Positions 32,894 through 37,150 of a DNA stretch of 64,000 nucleotides are shown here, piece by piece. This DNA is from Methanospirillum stamsii (lineage in GTDB: Archaea > Halobacteriota > Methanomicrobia > Methanomicrobiales > Methanospirillaceae): NCBI RefSeq assembly GCF_003173335.1, contig NZ_QGMZ01000004.1, positions 62,001-126,000 on the forward strand. Direction: 5' to 3'. Within the stretch, counting starts at the first letter, position 1, and each line of letters opens with the position of its first letter. The notes beneath the pieces were generated by a model that did not search any database, was not told the origin of the DNA, and saw nothing but the letters and a program-made list of their open reading frames with translations. The translations under genes were made by a program, and so were the position numbers.

Positions 32894-33097
32894 AGTACCA
32901 CATGGTTATTTTTTTACGGTAATTCAGTATGCCGGTTTAAAAACTGATGCCAAAAAATATCACCGAACATACCCAGCCATCCATTTCAGCATTACTCAAT
33001 CTAATGAATCTACAATCCTGAATCAACGATTCCGTTTATCAGAGTTTTGTTTTTTGATAATCAGGCATATATATTTTCGGGTATTACAGGTAAGGGC

Positions 33098-33880
33098 ATG
33101 AAAGCAACTTTATGGATTGGATGTATTCTTCTCATTCTTCTTGGCTGTACAAGCCTTTGTATGGCAAACGAAACAATCGGGAATGAAACCGAAGTAATAG
33201 TAGAGAATATCTCAGAAACTATTACCAATGATACGAATGTCACTGAAATTGTAGATGAAGCAGTAATTATTCCTGCTCAACCAGTTAATGAGTCAGAGCA
33301 GATCACTTCGGAAGTTGATGAGGTTCAGGAAGTACCTTCTGAAATCATCGCAGAAGTAGTACCAAACACAACCGTTGAATCAGAAGCTCCGGCACCAGTA
33401 ATTTCACTCATTGAACAAAAAAAGAATGAACTTGCAGCTTTTGTTGCAGATACCAGAATGGTAGCACTGAAAGCAGGAAAGGATGCTGCAATCTCTGCCT
33501 TCAATGACCGGGCAGGGCAATATGCAAATCCGGATATGCCGGTCTTCGCCTATGACATCACCGGAAAAGTTCTGGCAAATTCAATGGACCCTAATTCCGT
33601 CGGGACAAATCAGATCAGCGTTTCTTCTCCTGAAGGAATACGCTATGTCCAGATGATGATTGACACTGCAAAGAATGGAGGAGGATTTGTAGAATACACC
33701 GCTTCCAACATCCTTGATCAGGGAAAACTCATGAAAAAGATGGTATACGTGAGCTCTGTTGATGGGTCATGGTTTATTGGTTCAGGTATTTTCCTTGAAG
33801 ACGAGGTAGAACGGGAAAGCCCTTCAGCTGAAGATTTGGTATCCCAGGAAACCGCTGAAAACTCAACTGCTTCTGCATAA
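33098..33880 (+). CDS. Exported single-Cache domain protein
   Basis: About 260 residues with a signal or lipobox (WIGCILLILLGCTSLC), an acidic Asn-rich spacer and one Cache sensor domain (about 110-245). The domain includes FAYDITGKVLANSMDP, GTNQISVSSPEG, GGGFVEYTA and SWFIGSGIF. Single Cache domains bind small extracellular ligands and usually sit in receptors; here no membrane helix or signalling domain follows. ATG 33098 fits the signal peptide and is preceded by AGGTAAGG. Partners are not evident, although kinases lie 7 kb upstream. Confidence 0.8.
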   Translation: MKATLWIGCILLILLGCTSLCMANETIGNETEVIVENISETITNDTNVTEIVDEAVIIPAQPVNESEQITSEVDEVQEVPSEIIAEVVPNTTVESEAPAPVISLIEQKKNELAAFVADTRMVALKAGKDAAISAFNDRAGQYANPDMPVFAYDITGKVLANSMDPNSVGTNQISVSSPEGIRYVQMMIDTAKNGGGFVEYTASNILDQGKLMKKMVYVSSVDGSWFIGSGIFLEDEVERESPSAEDLVSQETAENSTASA

Positions 33881-34000: not shown

Positions 34001-35551
34001 ATGAGGTATTATATTTTTCTTACATTCTGTATGCTGATAACCGTGTCAGGAACCGCTTATGGAGCAGTTCCAGGCGATATCCTTAAAAATCAAGCCTTTG
34101 GTCTTCCGGAAGGGCCTGAATGGGGTTATGGGCTTGATACATCCGCGGATGGAAATACCACGGTTTGCGGAGTAGCTTATCCGGATGATTCGGTTGACCT
34201 TGGATATCTTGGAAACGGAGATGTCTGGGTAATTCGGTTTGATGCCAACGGGACTGTTCTCTGGGAAAAATTATACGGGGGAAATGAAACCGATTACGCC
34301 CTGTCTGTTCGGAATCTGCCTGACGGAGGAGCAGCTCTTATAGGCACGACCGGATCATATAACGGGGACGTGAGCAATTACCATGGAAATGGTGACATGT
34401 GGGTTTTAAACCTCGGCCCTGATGGGAATATACGCTGGGAATTGGCACTCGGAGAAAACCAGACTGATGAGGGGTCAGATCTTGTGGTTCTTCCGGATGG
34501 CAATATTGTAGTATGTGGATATACTATGTCATCCAGAAATGGCGACCTCTGGATGATAAGACTGGATCCCTCCGGAAATATTGTCTGGCAACGTGCATAT
34601 GGAGGAAACGGACGTGACAGTGGTACAAGTATAACCAAAACCAGTGACAATGGAATTGCTGTATGTGGAAATACAAATTCCACGGACTCTCCCGATCGTG
34701 TAAACCAGACCAGCAATGATGTCTGGATTCTGAAAACTTCCCTGAATGGCACCCCGCTCTGGGAAAAATCCTATGGGGGTTCTGCTCTTGACTGGGGGCA
34801 TTCAATTGTAGAACTCTCTTCAGGAGATCTTATGGTGGCTGCTGTCACTGCTTCTGGTGATGGCAATGTAAGCATGAATCATGGGGCGGGAGATATCTGG
34901 ATCATGAGACTTACCCCTGATGGTTCTCTCGTATGGGAAAAATCATTTGGGGGCAGTTTTAGTGATAATGTCTGGAAACTGGAACCTTCTTCATCAGGGG
35001 GAGCATATTTTGTCGGAGACAGTTATTCCATGGACGGAAATTTCACCGGTAATCATGGAGAATCAGATCTGCTGATTGGTGAAATTGATGGAGACGGTAC
35101 CCTGCTCTGGCATAGGCAGATAGGAGGTTCGCTTGTTGACCGGGGTTCATGGGTGAAAAAAACTCACAACAATTCTCTTATGATAACCGGTATGACTGCG
35201 TCATCAGATGGGGATCTTTCCGGGAACCACACCAGTGGGGATCTCTGGGTTCTGGAGGTTCAGGCGAATGGAAAAGAAGAGCCAGTTCTTCCGGAAAGTA
35301 ATCAGAGTGCTGCACAACTTCTGATGATCCCCTTAAACGGAGATGGTCCCGTACCAACTGATCCGGATGGTGACGGCAGATATGAAGACATGAACGGAAA
35401 TGGTAAGACCGATCTACAGGATCCAACCGTTTTCTTCCAGAATTTTGAATGGATTCAAAAGCAGGGCTACCTGTATGAATTTGATTTTAATGAGAACGGT
35501 TCATTGGACCTCGGTGATGTGCAGGCGCTCTTTGCGGAGATACAATCATGA
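34001..35551 (+). CDS. Exported seven-bladed beta-propeller with C-terminal dockerin-like module
   Basis: About 516 residues: signal peptide (1-23), then seven repeats of roughly 50-58 residues that fit a closed propeller. The repeat core is DxWxxxxxxxGxxxWExxxGG (for example GDVWVIRFDANGTVLWEK). The last 65 residues hold two EF-hand-like calcium loops, DMNGNGKTDLQD and DFNENGSLDLGD, preceded by DPDGDGRYED, which is the dockerin type I pattern. ATG 34001 has GGGGGAG about 8 nt upstream. The 3' end overlaps the cohesin-like gene by 4 nt. I infer the dockerin binds that partner. Confidence 0.85.
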   Translation: MRYYIFLTFCMLITVSGTAYGAVPGDILKNQAFGLPEGPEWGYGLDTSADGNTTVCGVAYPDDSVDLGYLGNGDVWVIRFDANGTVLWEKLYGGNETDYALSVRNLPDGGAALIGTTGSYNGDVSNYHGNGDMWVLNLGPDGNIRWELALGENQTDEGSDLVVLPDGNIVVCGYTMSSRNGDLWMIRLDPSGNIVWQRAYGGNGRDSGTSITKTSDNGIAVCGNTNSTDSPDRVNQTSNDVWILKTSLNGTPLWEKSYGGSALDWGHSIVELSSGDLMVAAVTASGDGNVSMNHGAGDIWIMRLTPDGSLVWEKSFGGSFSDNVWKLEPSSSGGAYFVGDSYSMDGNFTGNHGESDLLIGEIDGDGTLLWHRQIGGSLVDRGSWVKKTHNNSLMITGMTASSDGDLSGNHTSGDLWVLEVQANGKEEPVLPESNQSAAQLLMIPLNGDGPVPTDPDGDGRYEDMNGNGKTDLQDPTVFFQNFEWIQKQGYLYEFDFNENGSLDLGDVQALFAEIQS

Positions 35552-36564
35552 ATTATCATCTGACATTAATCGTGCTGCTCCTTGCAGCAGTAAGTATCAT
35601 CTCAATTTCTTCAGGAGAAGTTGTTTCAATCGCGCCCATCAGTATTCAGGCAGGAACTCAGGGAAATGCTGATATTACCCTTGACTCAGTCCCTGCAGGA
35701 TTATCTGGATACCGGATGACCGTATCATCAGATAATCCGGCAGTTGTGACAGTAACCGGGGTATCATTTCCAAAATGGGCATCTCTTTCCGAGGCAGTAC
35801 CAGGAGAGAGTGGCTCATTTGCATTGAGCGCCATTGATCTGAACAGTGAAGTGGAGAAAGGAGCAGGCAGTATCACTCTTGCAACCCTGAACATCCAGGC
35901 ATCAGGTGCAGGGAGTGCACAGATAACAATGGGCGGAGTGCAGATAGATGATGATTCAGGAAATCCGGTCCAGGCAGAGATAAAGCCAGGTACGGTTACC
36001 ATTCCCGGATCAACACCGGTCCCGACATCTGTTCCAACAGTAATGCCAACGCTTACTCCTACATCAAGTCCGCAGGAAAACAAAATAACCCTGAACACGG
36101 GATGGAACCTCGTTAATATTCCCGTGGAACTCTCCGAAGGATCAAACACTGCTGAGATATTCAGGAATGTACAAAGTGCAGGTCATTCCATCCTGGCATA
36201 TGACAGTTCATCCGGATGGGTTACCGTTGGCAAAAATGACCCTCTCACCCCCATGACCGGGTACTGGATTTACACCACAACACCCCTGAGTGTTTCCCTC
36301 TCGGTGAAGGGCGTTCCTACCGGATCGAAATCTCTTGCTACCGGATGGAACCTTGCGGGAATTAGTGGCACCAGTCCCCGTTCGGCTGATGTTGCGCTTT
36401 CAGGTCTTTCATCATGGACATACATCATACCATATGACAGTTCTGCACAAAAATATCGGGATGCAGGCATCAGGGGAAACACAAATGCACCGGTAATACT
36501 TGAACCATACGAGGCATTCTGGATATACCTGAACTCACCAGGAACCCTTTCCCCATCATCATAA
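35548..36564 (+). CDS. Exported cohesin-like domain protein
   Basis: A 338-residue protein with a signal peptide (1-23) and a cohesin-type beta sandwich (about 25-150: ISIQAGTQGNADITL, VPAGLSGYRMTVSSDNPAV, GSITLATLNIQASG, VQIDDDSGNP). A Thr/Pro linker follows, then two WNL-type repeats (TGWNLVNIPVEL and TGWNLAGISG, each with a YDSS and a Tyr/Trp-rich end). There is no C-terminal anchor, so it may be a soluble scaffold or bind through its repeats. Its start is inside the end of the dockerin-like gene, arguing for a joint complex. Confidence 0.82.
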   Translation: MNYHLTLIVLLLAAVSIISISSGEVVSIAPISIQAGTQGNADITLDSVPAGLSGYRMTVSSDNPAVVTVTGVSFPKWASLSEAVPGESGSFALSAIDLNSEVEKGAGSITLATLNIQASGAGSAQITMGGVQIDDDSGNPVQAEIKPGTVTIPGSTPVPTSVPTVMPTLTPTSSPQENKITLNTGWNLVNIPVELSEGSNTAEIFRNVQSAGHSILAYDSSSGWVTVGKNDPLTPMTGYWIYTTTPLSVSLSVKGVPTGSKSLATGWNLAGISGTSPRSADVALSGLSSWTYIIPYDSSAQKYRDAGIRGNTNAPVILEPYEAFWIYLNSPGTLSPSS

Positions 36565-36628: not shown

Positions 36629-37150
36629 ATGTACTATAAAATCGGAGCATGCCTCCTTTTAGTTACTCTCCTGGTAGCCGGTGTTCATGCAATTCCCCCG
36701 CTGCCATACGAGTTTTATGGAAATGTCACCGTAAACGGAACAGATGCTGATGCCGGAGTTGTCATTCTCGCAAAAATTAACGGGACTGAAGTAGGGAATA
36801 TTACGACAACCACAACCGGAATTTATGGAGGGCCTGCTACCTTTGACCGGCGACTTGTAGTAAATGGTGCTGAAGAACAGATAGGTGAATACATAACGTT
36901 CTGGATCGGTGATTTGCAGGCAGCGCAGAAGGTAAAACTCTATGCCGGAGAATCACAGCATCTTGATCTGTCTTTTACTCCCGGAGAAGAGGGCAGTATT
37001 GATGCATCCGTTGTTCCATCTCAGAGCGGAACCATTGCAGATGTTCCAACAGACAGTGAAACACCTGGGCCTACCTCAACACAGGCACCGTTACTAATAG
37101 CCCCGATTGTCGCCGGACTTGCGATTTTCCTGTTATACCGGAGAGAGTAA
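36629..37150 (+). CDS. Small surface protein with signal peptide and C-terminal membrane anchor
   Basis: A 173-residue protein: signal peptide (1-21, LLLVTLLVAGVHA), a beta-rich domain (25-120) with FYGNVTVNGTDADAGVVILA typical of carboxypeptidase-regulatory or transthyretin-like folds, a Thr/Pro/Ser linker (125-150) and a terminal hydrophobic helix ending in YRRE. Several NxT/S sites (NVT, NGT, NIT) make it a plausible substrate of the N-glycosylation enzyme AglB encoded further on. Function is not known. GGAG lies about 10 nt before the ATG. Confidence 0.78.
   Translation: MYYKIGACLLLVTLLVAGVHAIPPLPYEFYGNVTVNGTDADAGVVILAKINGTEVGNITTTTTGIYGGPATFDRRLVVNGAEEQIGEYITFWIGDLQAAQKVKLYAGESQHLDLSFTPGEEGSIDASVVPSQSGTIADVPTDSETPGPTSTQAPLLIAPIVAGLAIFLLYRRE

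Follow-up and report, generated by a model that had tools for sequence, protein, structure and literature searches.

In the window, the 64,000-nucleotide stretch analysed here of DNA from Methanospirillum stamsii, a sheathed, methane-producing archaeon (contig C34 in a draft genome of 3.74 Mb), we found two overlapping genes, P1 and P2, with a gene for a small membrane protein, TM173, behind them. The features of the locus are as follows.

34001..35551, + strand: P1, an exported seven-bladed beta-propeller of the SBBP/delta-60 type with a C-terminal dockerin, 516 aa
34001..34066, + strand: P1 signal peptide MRYYIFLTFCMLITVSGTAYGA, read from the sequence
34100..35275, + strand: the seven propeller blades of P1, limits approximate
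35330..35548, + strand: P1 dockerin module (E = 5e-31 with the profile of dockerin relatives; its own Pfam Dockerin_1 score is sub-threshold)
35387..35422, + strand: P1 dockerin calcium loop 1 DMNGNGKTDLQD, aa 463-474, positions 10/11 = L-Q
35483..35518, + strand: P1 dockerin calcium loop 2 DFNENGSLDLGD, aa 495-506, positions 10/11 = L-G
35548..36564, + strand: P2, an exported mono-cohesin protein, 338 aa
35617..36009, + strand: P2 cohesin domain (AlphaFold pLDDT ~97; PDB fold matches)
36010..36075, + strand: P2 linker, Pro/Thr/Ser-rich (sequence; low pLDDT)
36076..36564, + strand: P2 C-terminal 'GWNLxxxP' module, putatively for sorting or anchoring (from its distribution in the genome)
36629..37150, + strand: TM173, exported, 173 aa, with a membrane segment at its C-terminal end, seen by inspection

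An ORF check places the start of P1 at the ATG at 34001 and the end of its stop codon at 35551. P2 begins at an ATG at 35548, within an ATGA that creates a 4-nt overlap with the P1 stop, and ends at 36564; its sequence reads as a signal peptide, a domain of ~130 residues, a Pro/Thr linker and a C-terminal module, in that order. Window positions 33047-33880, just ahead of the pair, encode an exported protein with a single Cache domain; this gene stays upstream of the pair in several members of the genus (L065, L067, L069, L070 and L072) and is absent in others.

In P1, seven D-x-W strand motifs (aa 74, 132, 182, 240, 298, 356 and 414) are regularly spaced at 50-58 aa, which supports a seven-bladed propeller, and the propeller matches both the CylK structure (E = 1.6e-18) and the SBBP/delta-60 models. 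The tail that follows carries the duplicated 12-residue calcium loops of a type I dockerin, each with a helix after it; both loops are complete, the second is offset from the first by 32 residues, all calcium ligands are retained, and a half-loop, DPDGDGRYED, stands upstream of the two. Against Pfam Dockerin_1 the P1 tail itself scores E = 0.22-0.29, under the cut-off. Two further tails encoded in this genome share 45% and 38% identity with the P1 tail and, scanned in isolation, exceed this cut-off (5.4e-8 and 1e-5), and 27 of 28 relatives of the P1 dockerin hit the model at E<1, the best at 2.8e-8 and some under the cut-off. When a profile built from these 28 relatives was run against the PDB, it found cellulosomal dockerins (2y3n_B at 3e-4, 2yik, 2ccl_B and 1ohz_B), with some EF-hand proteins scoring above them. 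A modelled relative from Methanolinea shows three helices in its dockerin. The D-x-W motifs, the CylK match, the two complete loops and the paralogous tails that pass Dockerin_1 together bear out what an earlier sequence-only reading of this DNA had made of P1, a propeller ending in a two-loop dockerin.

That reading also placed a cohesin domain in the next gene, with the 4-nt overlap. Its coordinates were right, and the domain assignment is upheld by AlphaFold and Foldseek. Pfam Cohesin (PF00963) matches neither P2 nor any other protein of its genome and reaches E<1 in just 4 of 44 relatives of the P2 cohesin (best 0.0021), and a PDB search with a profile of the 44 relatives found nothing. 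Because profiles fail even against the PDB, the cohesin call for P2 rests on fold and not on a profile match. AlphaFold models residues 21-150 of P2 at pLDDT ~97, and in a Foldseek search of the PDB with this domain all 50 of the 50 matches listed are or contain cohesins; the non-cellulosomal Archaeoglobus fulgidus cohesin 2xdh ranks second among the matches listed (E 3.9e-9). TM scores normalised to single-cohesin targets are mostly 0.6-0.8, and by model and fold comparison the domain has the nine-stranded jelly-roll of a cohesin. We also modelled a natural in-frame dockerin-to-cohesin pair from Methanolinea (L107) as one chain, with the stop read as Gly, and used the model for fold: it has a mean pLDDT of 92.6, a pTM of 0.67 and a cohesin fold, and its best 45 PDB matches are all cohesins. 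The lack of a confident cohesin or dockerin fold, which the sequence-only reading had named, beside a lack of calcium-dependent binding, as an outcome that would count against it, did not materialise. With no cohesin from Pfam and a dockerin only at E = 0.22-0.29, that call went beyond a plain profile search. At the level of annotation, a whole archaeal cohesin subfamily escapes the standard Pfam model.

The genome search for further dockerin-tailed proteins that had been proposed yielded six tails in the window's own genome, that of P1 included. The proteins that bear them are an SBBP propeller, an S8 and a C1 peptidase, a NosD protein, a PKD/SBBP protein and a sixth, unassigned one. The same genome has five cohesin domains at three loci, and at all three the first cohesin-only gene directly follows a dockerin gene. 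At the second locus a papain-PKD-dockerin protein is followed by a cohesin-only protein; at the third (L025:4142-11365), which is kept in the genus, an SBBP-PKD-cohesin-dockerin protein is followed by two cohesin-PKD-PEGA proteins. This three-gene unit is a larger version of the dockerin/cohesin pairing.

Across the genus, the P1-P2 pair and its identical 4-nt overlap are present in every one of the 12 Methanospirillum genomes that were searched, including that of M. hungatei JF-1, and the order P1, P2, TM173 and a thioredoxin-reductase-like gene (TrxR) is kept wherever the contig reaches that far. Judging by this synteny, TM173 may be a member of the same unit. P2 diverges more quickly than either P1 or the reductase that flanks the pair.

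The order also recurs in other genera, where a dockerin gene on the same strand lies immediately upstream of 16 of 25 cohesin-only genes (non-edge genes with a visible upstream neighbour, at loci chosen by cohesin match); most of these genomes carry merely 1-9 dockerins. Found at 3/3 loci, in 12/12 genomes and in many other genera, the dockerin-to-cohesin order is not due to chance. A second layout, in which a cohesin-dockerin dyad ends a large protein and a cohesin gene follows, emerged from a loci scan with the dyad as query and occurs in ANME-2, Methanophagales and Methanolinea. Dyads are also present in Methanoregulaceae, Archaeoglobaceae, haloarchaea and a few bacteria, for which the check covered the dyad, the next gene lying outside it. 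On two contigs, labelled uncultured bacterium and Fraserbacteria, we saw cohesin-dockerin-cohesin-dockerin chains (L134:5527-6951 and L145:7878-9299), a layout that could self-polymerise.

In cellulosomal dockerins, each of the two repeats bears its recognition residues at positions 10 and 11 of the loop. The two repeats form a symmetric surface (PMC12484212), and dual binding results. To quantify repeat symmetry, we used 125 non-redundant archaeal-type dockerins. The repeats agree at position 10 in 97/125 dockerins and at position 11 in 74/125, where 57.5 and 24.3 are expected, and none of 2000 shuffles reached the observed agreement at either position, an excess whose absolute size is inflated because the shuffles ignore relatedness. 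At loop positions 2, 4, 8, 13 and 15 of the same 125 dockerins there is no excess agreement. Read at the level of sequence, the position pattern of the symmetry is as predicted for a binding surface. In P1 the repeats are alike at position 10 (L/L) and unlike at position 11 (Q/G), which we counted against reading P1-P2 as a pair. Among P1 dockerins of the genus, repeat 1 retains L-Q (I-Q once) and repeat 2 is variable. The only other dockerin family of the genus with L-Q is that of the NosD-type beta-helix protein, which has L-Q/L-Q; the remaining ones have YG, MH/MQ, FS/YT and TN. The NosD-type protein, with a short dockerin, is encoded at L026:1194-3380 (contig C3 of genome G000) and is conserved in the genus.

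The C-terminal module of P2 (~155-160 aa) recurs in ~15 further proteins encoded by the genome, which include S8 peptidases, PKD arrays and NosD-like proteins; it lies at their extreme C-terminus, in most of them 1-4 residues from the end. Carriers of the 'GWNLxxxP' module beyond the window are at L008-L021. No Pfam family matches the P2 module, and AlphaFold models it at pLDDT 45-72. Its location at the very C-terminal end of exported proteins that are unrelated to one another makes it look like a sorting or attachment module. From this distribution alone we infer that the module would act as a surface anchor, and it may be a new archaeal sorting/anchoring domain.

Taken together, the cohesin fold, the paralogous tails, the 12/12 conservation, the gene order elsewhere and the loop symmetry indicate that P1-P2 is a real cohesin-dockerin pair, and a non-cellulosomal one. 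A cellulosome combines a multi-cohesin scaffoldin with dockerin-tailed glycosidases; in the window's own genome we found one cohesin per protein. In this respect the sequence-only reading, which saw a non-cellulosomal archaeal pair with a propeller as cargo, agrees with the fold, the tails, the gene order and the lack of a multi-cohesin scaffoldin. In the full explanation that we favour, and consider likely, P1 and P2 are both exported, the P1 dockerin would fold with calcium and dock onto the single N-terminal cohesin of P2, and the C-terminal module of P2 would serve to hold the propeller at the cell envelope. The overlapping genes would hold P1:P2 near 1:1. Binding of P1 to P2 and its dependence on calcium are predicted here from sequence and models, and the propeller would presumably serve as a binding or adhesion domain. 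Since P2 has a single cohesin, it would be a tether at most and not a multi-cohesin scaffoldin, and the earlier word 'scaffold' was too strong. Cohesins are not mentioned in the main text of an envelope study (PMC11641113) or a sheath study (PMC6242892) of M. hungatei.

The P2 cohesin might instead be a shared socket for which several dockerin proteins compete, P1 being just the co-transcribed client and the NosD-type protein the best candidate for a second one. We regard this as possible, if somewhat doubtful. The genome has six dockerin tails and only five cohesins at three loci to receive them, and the L-Q/L-Q of the NosD-type dockerin comes close to the L-Q/L-G of P1, with L-Q in repeat 1 of almost every genus member in either family and other residues in the remaining dockerins. 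However, the NosD-type tail has diverged (E 5e-15 to 3e-9) and is missing the DxDGDG half-loop, and the partner rule by which the loops would be matched is borrowed for archaea, by analogy, from cellulosomes.

Two further readings dispense with docking. If the cohesin and dockerin were vestigial, or served only folding or stability, the adjacency would be the descent of an old two-gene unit, and the divergence of the window dockerin to below the Pfam cut-off and the fast divergence of P2 would be consistent with this. Such decay is hard to reconcile with calcium ligands that are all retained, with a cohesin and a dockerin kept together in 12/12 genomes, and with repeat symmetry focused on the recognition positions, and we consider it improbable. 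We give very little credence to the idea that an ordinary EF-hand-like calcium module forms the tail and stabilises the propeller, and that the P2 domain is a functionally unrelated immunoglobulin-like adhesion domain. The rank of EF-hand proteins in the PDB search and the missing Pfam cohesin call for P2 point that way, but the fold search with P2 returned cohesins throughout, the paralogous tails exceed the Dockerin_1 cut-off, and the pairing with cohesin genes is systematic.

The closest precedent for P1-P2, read as a cohesin-dockerin pair, is the adjacent pair ORF2375/ORF2376 (AfuDoc75/AfuCoh76) of A. fulgidus, with a dockerin at residues 432-506 of ORF2375, a cohesin at residues 29-162 of ORF2376, and strong, specific binding measured between them (PMC9705933). 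Both pairs are non-cellulosomal and consist of consecutive ORFs with a C-terminal dockerin and an N-terminal cohesin (A. fulgidus positions from PMC9705933); this adjacency, the dockerin gene next to the cohesin gene, is what we found for P1-P2, and the cohesin fold of P2 is the same (2xdh). In contrast, sequence similarity between the two is below profile detection, the cargo in Methanospirillum is an SBBP propeller, and P2 bears a lineage-specific C-terminal module. Binding has been measured for the A. fulgidus pair only, whereas the Methanospirillum pair is known from sequence and models. Cohesin and dockerin sets have also been published for ANME archaea (Chadwick et al., 2022, PMC9012536; PMC5244752). 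ANME-1 and ANME-2 share the domain families, and ANME-2 and Methanophagales loci have dyads with following cohesin genes; however, a single ANME chain can carry as many as 5 cohesins and the modules run into the dozens, while the window's own genome has one cohesin per protein and a total of 6 dockerins. With the type I bacterial cellulosome the pair shares the cohesin fold, the two calcium loops and the repeat symmetry at positions 10/11, but the P1-P2 unit is without a multi-cohesin scaffoldin, an SLH anchor or glycosidase cargo. Given the binding precedent in A. fulgidus, P1-P2 is not an undescribed system, and that claim of the sequence-only reading was overstated in view of the A. fulgidus pair (PMC9705933) and the ANME sets (PMC9012536, PMC5244752). 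In the literature searched we found no earlier description of a cohesin-dockerin pair in Methanospirillum. What is new is P1-P2 as a member, the regularity of the gene order, the symmetry of the loops, the gap in Pfam and the candidate for a second client.

The same family contains methanogens much richer in dockerins, one with a complete genome of 2,922,917 bp and seven from a single other genus, with 20-45 dockerins per genome (G014 with loci L182-L201, G016, G030 and G117-G121). Cohesins were counted in three of these (G014, G016 and G030), which have 3-6. Much of the sampled cargo in the complete genome consists of NHL/kelch propellers, NosD, CBM6, GDSL lipases, proteases and PKD proteins. 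A propeller as cargo is not unusual: when 20 dockerin proteins of one dockerin-rich relative were scanned, about half proved to be propellers of the NHL, kelch or SBBP type. Conceivably, Methanospirillum and its relatives have a cohesin-dockerin code in common, by which propellers, proteases and beta-helix proteins are presented on the envelope, with the P2 C-terminal module as a new archaeal surface-sorting domain, a broader proposal that we consider rather unlikely as it stands.

The purpose of archaeal cohesins and dockerins has been an open question since 1999. The gene order described here gives ready-made cognate pairs, and M. hungatei is cultured, with a known S-layer and sheath. As the loops predict which dockerins have a cohesin in common, specificity is directly testable in this organism. 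The dockerin-rich relatives are the most promising lead: if the broader proposal is true, they would hold a cellulosome-scale, non-cellulolytic surface assembly that is invisible to the Pfam cohesin model.
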